A stretch of DNA of 60,810 nucleotides from Calothrix sp. HK-06 (GTDB taxonomy: Bacteria > Cyanobacteriota > Cyanobacteriia > Cyanobacteriales > Nostocaceae), in assembly GCF_001904745.1 (NCBI RefSeq), contig NZ_MRCD01000053.1, positions 1 to 60,810 on the forward strand, read 5' to 3'. The position numbers and the translations under genes are program-made. Positions 6,366 through 60,810 of this stretch are shown here, piece after piece (the stretch's first letter is position 1; each line of letters opens with the position of its first letter). The notes under the pieces are model-generated. The model was given only the letters and a program-made list of their open reading frames with translations. It searched no databases and was not told the DNA's origin.

Positions 6366-8117
6366 TTATCGAGCATCACTAATTAGCCATTGATTAGAAG
6401 CTGCATCCCACACTAAGGTAAAACGCACTCTCGCACTCGATTGTTTACCACTTTTAAGTATGTAATTTAATTTTGCGTCTACTGTAGCAGAAGAGTCATT
6501 TTGTTCTACTAAGTTAATTTGGTTTATTTCAACTTGTGAGACTTGTCCATCCCACCAACCAATGTATGAATCAAAACCTTTAGGATGAAGTCTACGATTG
6601 TTTTGTAAAGCAGGAGTAAATTTGCTCCAAGTTTTTTGTAAGTTTTTATTATTAATACCGTTGTAGTAATTTTCTACAAACTCTGTTGGTGATGATTGTG
6701 CTTGTGGTGGATTTGATGGTGTTTGTGTTGGTATTACTGTAGGAACAACTACATCTGGAGTTTTTGTATTTGGAATTTCAGGTGTTGAAGTTGGAGACGG
6801 TGATGGTAAAGCTTCTGTTGTCTCAATTGGTGTTGGAGTATCGGTTGGAAATTCTGAATCTATAGGAGTTGGGACTACTTCTGGTTCACGTGTTCGGATT
6901 GGTCTACGGGTAATTCGATTTTTAGGTCTTGATATTACAGGTGGTTCAGAGTTGTCTAGTGTTGGGGATGGTGTTGGTGTTCGCTCGTTCAATGTTGCAA
7001 CAGGTGTAGGGTCTGTATCTGCAACTTGTTGACCTTGACGATTTAACATTGAAGCTAGAACTATTGCACCACTAAGTAAACCAGCACCTATTACGGCGCC
7101 TATTACAATACCTCTAGTATTACCCGAACGTGGTATCTGAGGTGCATTGTTTTGATTAATAGGTGGTGTATTTGCCTGATTATTTGGTTGTTGGTATTGT
7201 TGGTTCGCAGGACTGATGGGAACTGTATTCTGTGGTGGTGGATAAAAAGCTTGGTTATAGTTGGGAGTTTGAGAGTAAGGTAGCGTTGGTGTAGAAGCGG
7301 AATTTCCCGATTGTAAAGCATAAAGCATATCTCTAGCACTATTGAAGCGATGCTGAGGCACAAACTGTATTGCTTTATCTAACACCATTGCAAAACCTGG
7401 TGTCAAAGAAGTTGCATACTGGCGCCATAATATTACACCTGTCGCTGGGTCATTTGGTATTTCTTGGGGCAATTTACCTGTTAGTAAAAAAATTGCCGTC
7501 ATTCCCAAACTATAAATATCACTAGCAAACATTGGTCTACCTACCGACTGTTCACTAGGCATAAATCCTGGTGTTCCAATTACTATTGACCTTGTAGAAT
7601 TCCCAGAGGGTGAAACAATTGTACCAATTGTCTCCTTTACGGCGCCAAAGTCTATTAGTACTGGTTTACTATCATAGTGACGAATAATGATATTATCGGG
7701 TTTGATATCACGGTGAACAATACCTCGACCGTGAACATAATCAAGTACAGGTAAAAGACTAATCAGAATATCTTGGACAGCATTTTCACTTATTACACCC
7801 TGAGATTGGACTTTGGTGCTAAGAGTTTGTCCTTCGATATATTCTTGAATTAGGTAAAACTGTCCATTTTCAGAAAAATAAGCATATAAACGGGGAATTT
7901 GATTACTATTATCGCCAAGTTCCTCTAAAATAGCCGCTTCGCGCTGAAACCGTTCCTTAACAAGTTGATAAATTTCAGGATTGTTATTGATTGGTTTTAG
8001 CTGTTTGATGACACAGCGACGCTTGGATGGCATTTGAGTATCTTCAGCAAGGAAGGTTTCTCCAAACCCACCGCTTCCTAGAGTCTGTATCACGCGATAG
8101 CGGGTATTGAGCAGCAT
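6366..8117 (-). CDS. Transmembrane Ser/Thr kinase with extracytoplasmic NTF2-like end
   Basis: The protein has 583 residues. The N-terminal Hanks-type kinase domain (about residues 7-270) has a glycine loop GSGGFG, the catalytic lysine in VIKQLKP, HRDIKPDN, and DFG in LIDFGAV, so it should be active. A Pro/Asn/Gln-rich stretch and one membrane helix (near residue 345, IVIGAVIGAGLLSGAIVLA) follow, then a long Pro/Thr linker of the 'TPTP' kind. The last 105 residues ('FVENYYNGINNKNLQKTW') look like an NTF2/SnoaL-like fold and would sit outside the cytoplasm as a sensor. It is a tandem paralogue of the next kinase gene; the two are 92 bases apart on the same strand. Confidence 0.92.
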   Translation of the reverse strand: MLLNTRYRVIQTLGSGGFGETFLAEDTQMPSKRRCVIKQLKPINNNPEIYQLVKERFQREAAILEELGDNSNQIPRLYAYFSENGQFYLIQEYIEGQTLSTKVQSQGVISENAVQDILISLLPVLDYVHGRGIVHRDIKPDNIIIRHYDSKPVLIDFGAVKETIGTIVSPSGNSTRSIVIGTPGFMPSEQSVGRPMFASDIYSLGMTAIFLLTGKLPQEIPNDPATGVILWRQYATSLTPGFAMVLDKAIQFVPQHRFNSARDMLYALQSGNSASTPTLPYSQTPNYNQAFYPPPQNTVPISPANQQYQQPNNQANTPPINQNNAPQIPRSGNTRGIVIGAVIGAGLLSGAIVLASMLNRQGQQVADTDPTPVATLNERTPTPSPTLDNSEPPVISRPKNRITRRPIRTREPEVVPTPIDSEFPTDTPTPIETTEALPSPSPTSTPEIPNTKTPDVVVPTVIPTQTPSNPPQAQSSPTEFVENYYNGINNKNLQKTWSKFTPALQNNRRLHPKGFDSYIGWWDGQVSQVEINQINLVEQNDSSATVDAKLNYILKSGKQSSARVRFTLVWDAASNQWLISDAR

Positions 8118-8209
8118 TACAGTAATGAGTGAGCATTCAAGACAAGGGTGTTGCCTTAATATTCTACAACTTCTGTTTAAATTGGCTGTATCACTGACCA
8201 GCCAAAAAC

Positions 8210-9952
8210 TTACTTGAAATAATGTAAGTTATTGTCTGTTTGATATTTATCAATATATGTAGCGTTACGCATTTCTAAATTTGATAGAAATTTTGAGGAG
8301 TCAAATTCTTTTGGAGAGTATTGCGGACGATACCAGGACTGTTGATTAAAATGGCTTTGTAATCCTGGAGTGTCAAAACGGCGCCCTAACCGTGCAAAAA
8401 TAGAGTTACGCATTATATCTAACTCCAAAGCACTTTTTCCTTCTAAATCAGCATCGCTTACTGGTCGCTGTGATAACCAAGAATAATTATCATTGATTAT
8501 ACCTTTCAATGTCGTGCTACTGCTTGGTGTTGGGGTTGGTGTTAGGCTAATTGAAAATTGTTTAAAGTAAAATCGGTCGGTTGGTGCAGAAGCATCAAGA
8601 CTTGCAAATGTACAATATGCATCTTCATTTTGTAAACCAAAGTTACGTAACAAATCTACACACTTATCGCGTGTAGTAAATTTGCCTACATGTACGGCGT
8701 ATAATTCTTTGCCAGAGAGATTAGGATAATTAGGTATCCAAAATAATCCTGCTTCTTGATATCCTTTAGCTTTTAATTGTTCAAGTTGCTTATTTGCAGC
8801 TTCTTGTTTTGCATAAGCCGAATCTATAAGAAAATATGAAGAGCTAGGAAGATTTGATATTGATTTATTATTATTGTTAGGTAATACAGCGTTTACTGAT
8901 GGTTTGATTGTAGCAGTATCGGAAGTTACGGGTGTTTTATCTGCAATTCCTAGAGGAGAAAATTTGGTAAGGGAGAATACAAGTGCTGAGGCGCCAAGGA
9001 TTCCTGCCACAATTAAGCTAGCAGTAAAAATACTATTTTGACTTTTACTTGTATTAGTAGCTGGTGGCAGTGGTGTTTGTGACGCTACCTGTACTGTTTT
9101 ATCTACTGTTTCGTGTACGTTAGGATGTATCGTTTGTGCAGTGCTTTTTAAATCATAAAGCATGTCTGACACGCTTAAATAACGTTCACGGGGATGGTAT
9201 CTAATTGCTTTATCTATAATTTGCTTCAATACAGGACTAACATGAGAAGCAAAATTATGCCAAATTATTTCCCCTGTTTGGATATCGGTTTCTAACTCGT
9301 GTGGTTGTTTACCTGTTAGTAAATAAATTGCGGTTATACCCAAACTATATATATCGCTTCCATACATTGCCCTACCAGCTGCTTGTTCAGATGGCATGTA
9401 ACCTGGTGTACCAATAATAATTGAGCTAGTGGGTGTACCTTGGGAGTTTAACACAGTTGCCATCGATTCGCGCACGGCGCCAAAATCAATCAAAACTGGT
9501 TTACTGTCTTGGCGCCGTACAATAATATTATCGGGTTTGATATCGCGGTGAATTATGTGTTTACTGTGAACGTAAGATAAAACTGGTAATAAATTTAACA
9601 GCAATGAGTATACTTGACTCTCATTCCACAATCCTTGATGTAAAAGCTTGCGGGTAAGAGTATCACCTTCTATCCACTCTTGAACTAAGTAAAATTGCCC
9701 ATCTAATTGAAAGTAAGCGTATAAAGTAGGTATTTGTGTATGGGCGCCACCTAATTCTTCTAATATTGCTGCTTCACGTTGAAACCGTTCTTGTACTAAC
9801 TGATAAATTTGAGGCTTATTTTGAATAGGTTTGAGCTGCTTAACAACACAACGACGGAGCGATGGCATTTGGGTATCTTCTGCTAAAAAAGTTTCACCAA
9901 ATCCACCACTTCCTAGAGTTTGTATTACACGGTAGCGGTTGTTAAGAAGCAT
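8210..9952 (-). CDS. Transmembrane Ser/Thr kinase with SPOR-like and YARHG-type ends
   Basis: The protein has 580 residues. Its kinase domain closely matches the neighbouring paralogue (same opening MLLNxRYRVIQTLGSGGFGE; HRDIKPDN and DFG present). A membrane helix lies near residues 303-325. Outside the membrane there is a region around residues 375-460 that resembles a SPOR-like peptidoglycan-binding fold ('ELYAVHVGKFTTRDKC'), then a Pro/Ser/Thr linker, then a C-terminal YARHG-type domain recognised by RNSIFARLGRRF and WYRPQY. YARHG domains are thought to be extracellular and cell-wall linked. The natural inference is a kinase that senses the wall or periplasm. The ligand and substrates are unknown. 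Confidence 0.9.
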   Translation of the reverse strand: MLLNNRYRVIQTLGSGGFGETFLAEDTQMPSLRRCVVKQLKPIQNKPQIYQLVQERFQREAAILEELGGAHTQIPTLYAYFQLDGQFYLVQEWIEGDTLTRKLLHQGLWNESQVYSLLLNLLPVLSYVHSKHIIHRDIKPDNIIVRRQDSKPVLIDFGAVRESMATVLNSQGTPTSSIIIGTPGYMPSEQAAGRAMYGSDIYSLGITAIYLLTGKQPHELETDIQTGEIIWHNFASHVSPVLKQIIDKAIRYHPRERYLSVSDMLYDLKSTAQTIHPNVHETVDKTVQVASQTPLPPATNTSKSQNSIFTASLIVAGILGASALVFSLTKFSPLGIADKTPVTSDTATIKPSVNAVLPNNNNKSISNLPSSSYFLIDSAYAKQEAANKQLEQLKAKGYQEAGLFWIPNYPNLSGKELYAVHVGKFTTRDKCVDLLRNFGLQNEDAYCTFASLDASAPTDRFYFKQFSISLTPTPTPSSSTTLKGIINDNYSWLSQRPVSDADLEGKSALELDIMRNSIFARLGRRFDTPGLQSHFNQQSWYRPQYSPKEFDSSKFLSNLEMRNATYIDKYQTDNNLHYFK

Positions 9953-56289: not shown

Positions 56290-58074
56290 ATGCGAACTCA
56301 TTATTGCGGCGAACTCCGTTCCGAACATATTGGAAAAACTGTCACCCTATATGGATGGATAGATAGGCGCCGCGACCACGGAGGAGTAATATTTTTAGAT
56401 TTACGCGACCGCGATGGCATCGTGCAGATAGTCAGCGACCCGCAGCGCACCCCAGATTCATATGATGCCGCGAATGCTCTCCGTAGTGAGTACGTAGTAG
56501 AAATAGTCGGTAGAGTCACCCAACGTCCTGATGAATCATTAAACGAGCGTATTCCGACAGGAGAAGTGGAGATTTACGCCGACAAAATAACACTTCTTAA
56601 CGGCGTTCGTAAACAATTACCGTTTCAGGTATCGAGTGCGGACACAGACCCAGTACGCGAAGAAGTGCGGTTGAGATATAGATATTTAGACTTACGACGC
56701 GAGAGAATGGCAAAAAACATCCAATTACGCCATCAAGTTGTAAAAGCGATGCGTCGCTATCTAGAAGACTACGAAGGGTTTATTGAGGTGGAAACTCCAA
56801 TTTTAACTCGTTCGACACCTGAAGGCGCCCGTGATTATATTTTACCAAGTCGTGTAAATGCTGGAGAATGGTTTGCACTGCCACAGTCACCACAGTTGTT
56901 CAAACAAATCTTAATGGTGTCGGGATGCGATAGATATTATCAAATTGCGCGCTGTTTCCGTGACGAGGACTTACGCGCAGATAGGCAACCCGAATTTACT
57001 CAATTAGACATGGAAATGAGTTTCATGTCGCAACCGGAAATTATTGAGTTGAACGAAAAACTTGTTGGTCACATCTTCAAAACCGTAAAAGGTATTGAGT
57101 TACAGCATCCCTTCCCTCAAATTACTTATGCCGAGGCAATGGACAAGTATGGCAGTGATAAACCCGATACTCGGTATGACTTAGAACTTGTTAACGTTTC
57201 TGATATTCTCAAAGACAGTGGCTTTAAAGTCTTTAACGAAGCCATCAAAAACGGTGGCATAGTTAAAATATTGCCTATCCCCAACGGGAACGATGCTATT
57301 TCTAATGTTCGCATCAAACCAGGTGGAGATATATTTAGGGAAGCGAGTGAAGCAGGCGCCAAGGGTTTAGCGTATATTCGTGTGCGTGACAACGGTGAAA
57401 TTGATACAATTGGCGCCATTAAAGATAATTTGACGGAGGAGCAGAAAAAAGAAATTCTGACTCGTACAGGCGCCAAACCAGGTCACTTATTACTCTTCGG
57501 TGCAGGTGATGCTCCTACTGTAAATAAAACATTAGACAGGTTGCGTCAATTTGTCGCCAGAGAATTTAACTTAATCGACCCAGAGAAAATTAACTTACTA
57601 TGGGTAGTTGATTTCCCGATGTTTGAGTGGAACGCTGATGAGAAACGACTCGAAGCATTACACCACCCATTCACGGCGCCGCACCCTGATGATATTAACG
57701 ACTTGAAGACCGCGCGCGCGCAAGCTTACGACTTGGTGTTAAACGGCTTTGAAATTGGAGGTGGCAGCCTTCGTATATATCAACGCGACATTCAAGAGCA
57801 AGTATTTGAAGCCATAGGACTTTCACCCGAAGAAGCACAGGGTAAATTTGGTTTCTTATTAGAAGCATTTGAATATGGCACACCTCCGCATGGTGGTATT
57901 GCTTTTGGTTTAGACCGAATAGTGATGTTACTTGCTGGCGAAGAATCAATACGTGATGTTATTGCTTTTCCAAAGACTCAGCAAGCACGATGTGTGTTGA
58001 CAGAGGCGCCTTCTAGTGTGGATGCGAAGCAGCTTAAGGAGTTGCATGTAGCATCGACTTATAAACCTAAGTAA
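56290..58074 (+). CDS. aspS: Aspartyl-tRNA synthetase
   Basis: The protein has 594 residues, the full length of the bacterial-type enzyme. The anticodon-binding domain comes first ('[20 protein letters not shown]'), then the class II core with motif 2 '[20 protein letters not shown]', the bacterial GAD insertion in the middle, and motif 3 '[15 protein letters not shown]'. It is bacterial-type, so it may be discriminating or not; cyanobacteria often charge tRNA-Asn indirectly. It has its own promoter, divergent from the membrane-protein gene. Confidence 0.97.
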
Positions 58075-58088
58075 TAAAATCCCCCCAA

Positions 58089-58107
58089 CCCCCCTTAATA
58101 AGGGGGG
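58089..58107 (+). terminator. Terminator after aspS
   Basis: CCCCCCTT-AAT-AAGGGGGG forms an eight-base stem, 15 bases after the aspS stop codon. It lacks a T-run. Similar sequences are repeated just downstream, so it may also be part of a repeat. Confidence 0.55.
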
Positions 58108-58468
58108 CTAAGAATTACCTCTTGTCCCCCCCTTATTAAGCTCACAAGGGTAGGCTTTTTTTCTAAAATACGTGAAAAGCTAAGGTGGACAAGGGTGGAA
58201 GGTAGACAAGGTAGAAAAACCCCCCCTTGTCTACTTGTCTTCCTGTCTGCCGTGTCTGGGGTTTGGGGCAGAAAAAACCTACCCTTGTCAGCCCTTATTA
58301 AGGGGGGCTAGGGGGGATCAATTATGGTATGAAAACTTTAACCAAGCAGTATTGACTTCACTCCAATTCACTAGCGCGTCCCTGCTCGTCCCAAATGTAA
58401 GAATATTCCAAATGTAGAGGTTTTTCCTTTAGAGGATGTTTTAAAAGCCAAAGAAGGTATATATTTAC

Positions 58469-58498
58469 CACAGAGACACAGAGTTCACAGAGAGAGGA
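58469..58498. repeat. CACAGAGACACAGAG-type intergenic repeat
   Basis: The element is rich in CACAGAG units and resembles a widely scattered cyanobacterial repeat. It lies within a reading frame that is otherwise open from 58375 and carries coding-like sequence ('NVEVFPLEDVLKAKEGIYLP'), so it may have been inserted into an older gene. Confidence 0.55.
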
Positions 58499-58560
58499 GT
58501 GTGAGAGCTTTAGAATTGGTGCCTACTCCCAAAAGTAATTACTGTAGAGTGCATAACAAT

Positions 58561-58743
58561 ATGGTAAGTCCTGACACAAAAATGAAAATTATCTATTACA
58601 TTGCTACCTTAATTGGTTTTAAATCAAAAGAAGACTTATTTGATTATTGATTAGAAAATGACCCACGCTTTTTAGCGCGCATAGTCAAAGCGCGGCAAAG
58701 CTTACGCGAGGGAAAAGGTGTTAGGCTGGAAGACTTAGACTAA
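58561..58743 (+). pseudogene. Broken small gene, antitoxin-like
   Basis: The frame runs ATG 58561 to TAA 58743 but is broken by TGA at 58648-58650. The stop stands where a Trp codon would suit ('SKEDLFDY-stop-LENDPRF'). The second half, 'FLARIVKARQSLREGKGVRL' plus EDLD, resembles the tail of small antitoxin-like proteins of toxin-antitoxin pairs. I am not sure of the family. The same frame is open upstream to 58375. Its stop overlaps the next start as TAATG. Confidence 0.55.
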
Positions 58744-58922
58744 TGGAAAGAATAGAACATTATCGCCAATGTATCCGTAAGCTATTAACAGAACGAGCAG
58801 CACTTGAAACAAATAATTCTGATATTGAGTGTCAATTAATTTTTGACACAGAACACGACCATTATCAGTTACAAGATGTTGGCTAGGAAGGACTAAAGCG
58901 TATATATAGCTGCTTTATCCAT
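58743..58922 (+). pseudogene. xisI-like pseudogene
   Basis: It starts 'MERIEHYRQCIRKLLTERAA' and runs to 'DHYQLQDVG', the normal first half of XisI (controlling factor for excision of the fdxN element; XisI-like genes are also scattered across cyanobacterial genomes). TAG at 58884-58886 replaces the conserved Trp codon. The family sequence continues after it as 'EGLKRIYSCFIH' and then stops matching, so the 3' half is gone. No partner xisH is seen; the broken gene before it takes that place. Confidence 0.75.
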
Positions 58923-59138
58923 AAGAAAAGAAAGGAGAGAGGTTGTTATAATTTTGCACAAATTGTTATATGACAATTTTCTTTCTGTCACAAGTGGTAA
59001 TTTGATTATTCATCTATTAACAAGCTTTTCATAACTCAATAAGAAAGTAAACTACTTAGTCAATTTAGAAACTGTCCCAACCAAAGTTGCAAAATAATGC
59101 GGTTGGAGTAAAGGATTGAGTAGTTATATATAAGTAAC

Positions 59139-59858
59139 ATGTTAAATAATAAGTTATCGACTAGCAAGTTTTGGTTGTGGTTTGGCTGGGTAGTTGTAAA
59201 TGCACTTGGTGGCGCCATAGGTGTACTTGCATGTGCAGCCACTGGGATTGAAAATCTAACAGATTATCCTCAAATTACAATATTTGCTTTAACGACAGCA
59301 ATCACTGTTAGTACCTGCCAAGCGATATTTGTACAAAAGCAATATATTCCTAAACAAAGAACCGCTATTGTAACTGTATGGATTTTTATAAGTAGCTTCT
59401 GCTCGGCTTTAATGATTATAGCGGCGCCTATTATCATGTTTTTGGTAGCTTTACTATTAATATCAATTCCATCTTCAGGTACTTCTGGACAGGGTGTCCA
59501 GTATTTATTTTTCGGTTTAATGTTTATTATCTTCGGTTTAATCAGCGGAGTTGTAACAGGTTTTGCTCAACATTTTGTACTGAGTGGCGCCGCAGGTAAA
59601 TCAAAAAGACGATGGATTATTTATAGTGGAATTGGTGGTGCTTTAGGGTTAGGTATAGCCGCTATCATTGTTTCTGTTTTCTTTAAAGAACCGATATTTA
59701 TTATGGACGGATACTCTAAAGCTAAATCGCTAAGTATGTATGGGATGACGGTATTTAATACGATAGGTGGAATTATAAATGGCGCCGTTACTGGCATTGA
59801 AATAGTTCGCTTATTCGGAGAACTGCATCCAAGATTTTCATCTGTACACGAAGAATAA
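59139..59858 (+). CDS. Uncharacterised polytopic membrane protein, parent of a deletion copy
   Basis: The protein has 239 residues with about six membrane helices and no catalytic motif. The N-terminus 'KFWLWFGWVVVNALGGAIGV' and the C-terminus 'NGAVTGIEIVRLFGE' are recognisable in the shortened copy that follows. A Q-x-x-F-V-L motif at a helix end ('FAQHFVL') resembles cyanobacterial membrane proteins of unknown function. Four GGCGCC motifs lie inside; the first and last (59211 and 59781) are in the same codon phase. The gene stands alone, 44 bases before the shortened copy. Confidence 0.7.
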   Translation: MLNNKLSTSKFWLWFGWVVVNALGGAIGVLACAATGIENLTDYPQITIFALTTAITVSTCQAIFVQKQYIPKQRTAIVTVWIFISSFCSALMIIAAPIIMFLVALLLISIPSSGTSGQGVQYLFFGLMFIIFGLISGVVTGFAQHFVLSGAAGKSKRRWIIYSGIGGALGLGIAAIIVSVFFKEPIFIMDGYSKAKSLSMYGMTVFNTIGGIINGAVTGIEIVRLFGELHPRFSSVHEE

Positions 59859-59902
59859 CTAATCTTATACCCGCATTGTTCCAGCAGCTATATGTAATTA
59901 GT

Positions 59903-60052
59903 ATGTTTAATAATAAATTATTAACTAGAAAGTTTTGGCTTTGGTTTGGCTGGGTAGTAGTCAATGCACTTGGTGTTGCCATTACTGGAGTTGAAAGAGT
60001 TCGCTTGTTTGGAGAACGGCAAGCGAAGTTTTCATCTCTATACAAAGAATAA
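59903..60052 (+). CDS. 49-residue internal-deletion copy of the upstream gene
   Basis: It encodes 49 residues. The first 24 match the start of the upstream protein at 21 positions. The last 23 match its end at about 13. The 190 residues between are missing. The junction, GTTGCC at 59975-59980, aligns with the two in-phase GGCGCC sites of the parent at 59211 and 59781, which are 570 bases apart. The parent with that piece removed would also have 49 residues. It might make a one-helix membrane peptide or be a decaying pseudogene. It has no clear ribosome site. Confidence 0.65.
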   Translation: MFNNKLLTRKFWLWFGWVVVNALGVAITGVERVRLFGERQAKFSSLYKE

Positions 60053-60678
60053 ATAATTTTATAATTACTTGGTTGAGTCATTTCTCTTTTACAATAAACA
60101 GGCGCCGTTTTAGTTAGCGAAGTATTTTTTTGCATTTACATATTTTTAATGAAATGGATATGTAGTATTGAAAATTGTTATCTGAATTTATTTGTATATG
60201 AGTGTGTAATTATATAACTTATTTACGCTGCTTGTGAGGCAGAGTGAAGCGCGCATGTTTTAAGCGAGAATACTTAAGTTTACGAGAATACCGTTAGTCG
60301 GAGCATTACAAATATCATATAATCTGAATGGTGCCGCTTGATTTGTAGGGTTTTTTCGTGCCATTCGGTTTTTACTTAATAAGAAATGGCGCCTATGCCA
60401 CCAACGGTCTGTACAATTGTTACATTAACCTAGACAAAAGCAACATCTCGTCTTATTATTAAGCAATCAGCTTGATGTTTCGTAAACCGAAGCGAGGTCA
60501 AAAACCCCCATAGGTTCACGAAAATGCCCAGAACCTAGACAACATAATAATTACAGCATCTGCATATTTGCAATAGTTGCAAATGGCTCTCAACAAGTGC
60601 GGCTGAAATCGACTCGATTTTGACCTTCACGAAAACCTTGTCTAGAATCCTTACTTTGTAAGGGTCGTAGCGCGCGGA
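60053..60678. other. CRISPR leader region
   Basis: No gene is visible. The stretch next to the array (about 60480-60678) is probably the leader. It contains two related segments, around CACGAAAATGCCCAGAACC and CACGAAAACCTTGTCTAG, about 120 bases apart. No cas gene is seen in the window. Confidence 0.5.
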
Positions 60679-60810
60679 CTTTCAAATTTACGAATCCCGT
60701 CTTCGGGACTGAAACATGATTTGGGCAATTGTATAAATTTATTTCTGTAAGCTTTCAAATTTACGAATCCCGTCTTCGGGACTGAAACCATTTTCACGTT
60801 CTTTGTATGT
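60679..60810 (+). CRISPR. Start of a CRISPR array, continuing beyond the window
   Basis: Two identical 37-base repeats lie at 60679-60715 and 60752-60788, with a 36-base spacer between them and the start of a second spacer to the edge. The repeat contains the stem CCCG-TCTT-CGGG and ends in ACTGAAAC, like cyanobacterial repeats that leave an 8-base 5' handle, so transcription is probably rightward with the leader at left. No further repeat is seen to the left. The type cannot be assigned without cas genes. Confidence 0.92.

Follow-up and report, generated by a model that had tools for sequence, protein, structure and literature searches.

A 570-bp in-frame deletion ending at short direct repeats containing the iterated palindrome GGCGCC in a tandem gene copy of Calothrix sp. 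HK-06

The role of highly iterated palindromes (HIPs) in cyanobacteria is an open question. A small gene of Calothrix sp. HK-06 had been offered as direct evidence on it, appearing to be its larger neighbour with a stretch cut out between two GGCGCC motifs. The locus raises the question of whether the palindrome acted here as a special site or supplied a short repeat like any other. The window, that is, the whole stretch of DNA analysed (60,810 nucleotides), is an entire contig of a 9.99-Mb genome. GGCGCC, the six-letter palindrome that this genome over-uses most, occurs in it 110 times against 5.7 expected, while its sister words are nearly absent (GACGTC 0, GACGCC 1, GGCGTC 2) and the HIP1 octamer GCGATCGC is found once, the pattern of a GGCGCC-HIP genome in which GGCGCC is over-used and HIP1, like the remaining GRCGYC words, is rare. 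Within ORFs of at least 120 aa, 51 of the 98 sites lie in codon phase 0; with 110 sites, and about half of those inside ORFs in that phase, it is nothing unusual here for a gene to contain an in-phase pair. In each of the five relatives compared, GGCGCC sites are kept at a higher rate than other hexamers made up of G and C alone (in G003, 72 of 100 against 133 of 232). In the open-licence literature the only treatment found of GGCGCC as a HIP, or in Calothrix PCC 7103, is that of Elhai, whose relevant passages describe it as the over-represented alternative HIP of that strain (Elhai, 2015; PMC4390886).

The gene pair lies between aspS, upstream, and a CRISPR-type repeat array, downstream. From about 58125 to 60060 the syntenic stretches of the related genomes G005, G002 and G001 hold no match longer than ~65 bp; G003 matches the window at 58408–58552 and 58572–58741, and G004 at 58742–58923. 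Synteny resumes at 60061 in G005 and at 60389 in G003. A truncated XisI fragment (58743–58886; PF08869, E 1.1e-12, the first 47 of 110 profile positions) is situated between aspS and the gene pair, and it is DNA related to this fragment that is present in G004. The CRISPR-type repeats (60679–60788), with 37-bp copies at 60679 and 60752, 73 bp apart, are close to the contig end, and the DNA ahead of them is conserved in G005 and G003. Rfam gave no match at the gathering threshold over 58000–60810. Elsewhere in the window, at 6366–9952, two adjoining protein-kinase genes match each other at ~70% DNA identity over 650 bp, and there seems to be a third copy of this kind in G001 at that place.

The features of the gene pair, and the one remnant of its family used for comparison, are as follows.

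59119–59138, plus strand: 5' leader of the parent, duplicated (70% identity to 59883–59902)
59139–59858, plus strand: parent ORF, 239 aa, hydrophobic protein
59210–59216, plus strand: left TGGCGCC repeat, GGC GCC in phase 0, Gly-Ala
59211–59780, plus strand: segment absent from the copy, 570 bp or 190 codons, its exact ends ambiguous within the repeat
59423–59428, plus strand: third GGCGCC of the parent, phase 2
59586–59591, plus strand: fourth GGCGCC of the parent, phase 0
59780–59786, plus strand: right TGGCGCC repeat, GGC GCC in phase 0, Gly-Ala
59883–60063, plus strand: diverged tandem copy with internal deletion, homologous from ~20 bp before the ATG to ~11 bp past the stop
59903–60052, plus strand: 49-aa ORF of the copy, starting at the inner ATG
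59975–59980, plus strand: junction GTTGCC in the copy, two mismatches against GGCGCC
G129:C5:26169-26411, in another genus of the family: decayed C-terminal piece of the parent's gene family

Both ORFs, of 239 aa (59139–59858) and 49 aa (59903–60052), are present as first noted, the smaller being also listed as a product of 58 aa that starts, in an unchanged frame, with the TTG at 59876. Hydropathy predicts about five membrane segments in the parent protein and one in the 49-aa product; no Pfam match of the parent protein comes near the cut-off (best E 0.15) and NCBIfam gave no match. The copy begins 764 bp downstream of the parent and has the same layout minus 570 bp. Its left arm (59883–59993 against 59119–59229) shows 80% identity at an offset of 764, its right arm (59978–60063 against 59784–59869) likewise 80% at an offset of 194, and the change of offset between the arms, 764 minus 194, is 570. 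Judged from these alignments, the downstream gene is a duplicate that has suffered an internal deletion, lacking residues 25–214 of the parent protein. The proposed loss of 190 codons thereby stands, although the small gene does not equal its neighbour minus these codons, since the arms have diverged by 12–21% (87.5% identity over 72 bp on the left, 79% over 72 bp on the right). With copies so diverged, an assembly error is not favoured as the source of the copy. An independent origin of the small gene, named beforehand as a possible refutation, is rejected because both arms match the parent. A terminator-like hairpin of 10 pairs, 4 of them G-C, is located inside the 3' end of the copy (60000–60027); the scanned region holds two such hairpins against 0.8 in shuffles.

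The direction of the change is indicated by relatives of the gene within the family. Among 217 family genomes searched, 29 match at E 0.01, the window's own included, and the only strong match elsewhere is the G129 remnant, with 54% identity over residues 158–237 and an internal stop. Of the 80 residues that it matches, 57 fall inside the deleted residues 25–214, and a remnant reaching into the deleted part argues that the long form is older; on this comparison the long form is ancestral and the short copy derived. An insertion into a short ancestral gene is disfavoured by the same remnant. At the right breakpoint Gly-Ala is written GGAGCA in G129, and the protein reads Ala-Ile-Thr-Gly-Val in both the copy and G129, against Ala-Val-Thr-Gly-Ile in the parent; given this agreement, the older residues may have been retained in the right arm of the copy. 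A match in G088 (38% over residues 128–227, E 1.5e-4), within an open frame of 227 aa, may represent a distant full-length relative. A further 26 family matches are weak (E 0.0024–0.0095), 24 of them over about residues 40–144 in long frames of 735–1047 aa. Beyond the family, a phylum sample of 292 genomes returned the window's own genome only at E 0.001, and no further relatives of the gene were found in genome contigs (close relatives only), viral contigs or plasmids.

Within the genus, the other six genomes hold no match to the gene at E 0.001 and only weak ones at E 10 (best E 0.06). Intact second copies, which had been expected to be informative in related genomes, were found in none of the seven genus genomes searched, own included; with the gene absent from the other six, none is left for comparison. 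Between the arms, the NG86 method gives dS ~0.43 and dN ~0.14, with ~10 synonymous differences. The median dS over up to ten window genes is 0.18–0.19 to G005, G002 and G004, and 0.52 to G003; with 0.43 between the arms against medians of 0.18–0.19, a recent duplication is not favoured. For aspS alone dS is 0.19 (G005), 0.35 (G002), 0.34 (G004) and 0.42 (G003), and the values to G002 and G004 mean that the age of the pair is only loosely set. Probably, though not surely, the duplication is older than the nearest species splits and was then lost in the siblings, or the pair arrived together. The preliminary description saw here a rare direct view of what such repeats do to genes, an expectation that could not be sustained for a junction without the motif, in a pair that looks old, belonging to a gene that the other genus genomes lack.

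At the deletion ends, the parent carries GGCGCC at 59211 and 59781, both in phase 0 and 570 bp apart, and the copy carries GTTGCC at the junction, just as initially reported. Two additional parental sites had been missed, at 59423 (phase 2) and 59586 (phase 0), and three of the four are in phase 0. In the intact parent the lost segment is thus bounded on either side by an exact short repeat, TGGCGCC, the sole exact run of at least 5 bp when the parent is compared with itself at offset 570. Outside this run the two sites agree at just 4 of the 29 upstream bases and 9 of the 30 downstream bases; the flanks are barely alike, limiting pairing to ~7 bp. When the crossover is slid through the copy, mismatches reach a flat minimum of 9–10 per 60 bp at 59974–59984 and rise on both sides, placing the crossover on or beside the motif, and the aligned segments do not put the deletion ends away from it. 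The junction hexamer agrees with GGCGCC at four of six positions. Random relocation of 81 real indels produced a terminal repeat of at least 6 bp in 0.16% of placements, a chance rate at which the repeat at the deletion ends is more than coincidence.

Deletions between short direct repeats occur by replication slippage or single-strand annealing. The likely account of the locus is that a tandem copy lost 570 bp between such repeats, with GGCGCC taking part passively. A gene for a small membrane protein would have been duplicated in tandem, as a unit of about 59119–59869, and the downstream copy would then have lost 570 bp through misalignment or annealing between the exact 7-bp TGGCGCC repeats. 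The reading frame would have stayed open, since each repeat is read in phase 0 as Gly-Ala. GGCGCC would be one of many short direct repeats, supplied in this instance by the clade's over-abundant hexamer, and the junction hexamer would have drifted afterwards to GTTGCC. The molecular route (slippage or annealing), the order of duplication before deletion and the existence of both repeats at that time are steps that we infer. Other short-repeat indels in the clade, 17 of ~137 events and none with GGCGCC, count in favour of this passive deletion. Counting against it, the junction is not GGCGCC today and two substitutions must be assumed, and the motif may postdate the deletion, the right site in G129 being GGAGCA. 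In addition, the share of GGCGCC among short direct repeats (1.2–1.7%, see below) makes a GGCGCC end unlikely unless the gene's four sites are considered. When the in-frame direct repeats of the parent gene are counted, with copies separated by 30 bp or more, GGCGCC pairs account for 3 of 43 (at least 6 bp) and 3 of 19 (at least 7 bp). A frame-keeping short-repeat deletion here would therefore hit a GGCGCC pair by chance in 7–16% of cases, and its passive use comes as no surprise.

An unlikely alternative is that selection set the ends, only Gly-Ala joins of membrane segments leaving a foldable small protein and Gly-Ala often being written GGCGCC here. Both sites are indeed Gly-Ala in phase 0, and G129 keeps the right Gly-Ala without the motif. 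The NG86 dN/dS of the arms is ~0.32 (left 0.14, right 0.58), and synonymous changes are in excess when both arms are taken together (P=0.02; left 0.016, right 0.29). This excess hints at constraint, possibly in the parent alone; the ratio could equally arise if only the parent had been constrained, or if the constraint had preceded the deletion, the comparison covers 47 codons only, and YN00 gives ~0.42 overall. The 4 promoter-like hits do not exceed the level of shuffled sequence (5.2).

It is quite unlikely that GGCGCC is an active recombination or breakage site, for example via methylation or a nicking enzyme, with the deletion as one of its products. The deletion does end in register at two GGCGCC sites, the word is hugely over-represented, and some indication of HIP1-linked site-specific recombination is cited in passages of Elhai (2015; PMC4390886). 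Against this stands a survey of clean indels of at least 12 bp in the window and stretches of four relatives (G005 and G002 with 880 kb apiece, G003 with 480 kb, G004 with 71 kb), compared in ten pairs of which the collinear part only was aligned (e.g., 287 kb for G005–G002); G001 was used for site conservation and dS and left out of this survey. GGCGCC stood in register at both ends in none of the 165 pairwise indel calls, a count of limited power since 16 of 26 simulated GGCGCC deletions were recovered in a control. As pairs share events, the calls were de-duplicated to ~137, including 41 of at least 100 bp; 29 events carry a terminal direct repeat of at least 6 bp, 17 of these non-tandem, and GGCGCC lies inside the repeat in none of the 29, the 17 included. 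Near at least one indel end the word occurs in 6 of 137 events against 7.3 expected, which is chance level. The enrichment of indel ends at the HIP word across the clade that would mark HIP-driven recombination was thus not found, within the limited power of the survey. In a sample of G005, GGCGCC makes up 129 of 10357 short direct-repeat pairs of at least 6 bp and 56 of 3364 of at least 7 bp, or 1.2–1.7%, a share at which passive use predicts well under one GGCGCC case in 17. Hence 0 in 17 events argues against a strong preference, a weak one being compatible with the survey.

Among the paralogues one result points the other way. Fifty candidates came out of a scan for shortened paralogues that took in the window and 2.4 Mb of relatives' sequence. 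One of them, in G005 (joined coordinates 100730–100808 for the short copy), shows two GGCGCC in register close to its junction, a point for an active site. It also counts against a passive deletion, GGCGCC standing in register at both ends, though within ~30 bp of further similarity: next to the word, the source places of this mosaic are also alike for ~30 bp, and the repeat occurs again close by, so that longer homology accounts for the mosaic as well and GGCGCC need not be invoked. At G005:C7, about 3721684–3725850, a short diverged repeat ending in GGCGCC occupies about four places within 4 kb, and one copy looks like a mosaic of two others. An earlier, narrower self-scan gave 9 candidates, all in G005 and G002, with GGCGCC near one gap end in 2 of the 9; both scans missed the window's own case, for which BLAST reported the left arm only, and they constitute a weak test. 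The suggestion that other genes might be shortened between two GGCGCC sites is thus matched by one candidate in 50, and that within a longer repeat. As for the palindrome as a recombination or slippage site, the deletion ends do lie at GGCGCC-containing direct repeats, where slippage or another short-repeat event would put them, while a special role is not borne out by 0 of 165 calls or by 6 of 137 events against 7.3. That GGCGCC actively promotes deletions between its copies, tending toward in-frame shortened genes (as would follow because 51 of 98 ORF sites are in codon phase as Gly-Ala), is very unlikely, and the relatives checked give no clear sign that it causes deletions more than other words, which favours passive involvement.

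A junction that predates the GGCGCC sites, with the deletion arising by another route and the parent's sites turning into GGCGCC later, is highly improbable: GTTGCC in the copy, GGAGCA on the right in G129 and the turnover of GGCGCC sites (42 of 90 window sites kept in G001, at 81% identity) would fit, but for both sites to have acquired the word by chance, precisely in register with the junction, would be improbable.

The passive deletion between TGGCGCC repeats is accordingly preferred. The case is a real, neat but ordinary short-direct-repeat deletion in which the palindrome supplied the repeat, and nothing shows more. It illustrates cleanly that the short repeats of a deletion can come from an iterated word, and shows how the role of such a palindrome can be tested on whole genomes.

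HIP-associated deletion is a kind already known, in print since 1993. According to the account in PMC6331805, a HIP1-associated deletion in a cyanobacterial locus was published in that year, smtB carries four HIP1 copies inside its coding region, and work of 1997 concerns E. coli and Synechococcus (Robinson, 1997). Like the present case, the smtB case is, in that account, a cyanobacterial deletion associated by its authors with a highly iterated palindrome; it involves the octamer GCGATCGC and a strain called cadmium-tolerant, whereas here the word is GGCGCC and the copy is old, with no known advantage. The GGCGCC HIP of Calothrix PCC 7103 comes from the same clade and is the same word, with sister words nearly absent here; the passages of Elhai (2015; PMC4390886) on it do not discuss deletions between GGCGCC sites. 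With short-direct-repeat deletions in general, the locus shares a 7-bp repeat that is exact and, in the intact copy, stands at either end without extended homology, and it differs from them in that the repeat contains the genome's iterated palindrome.
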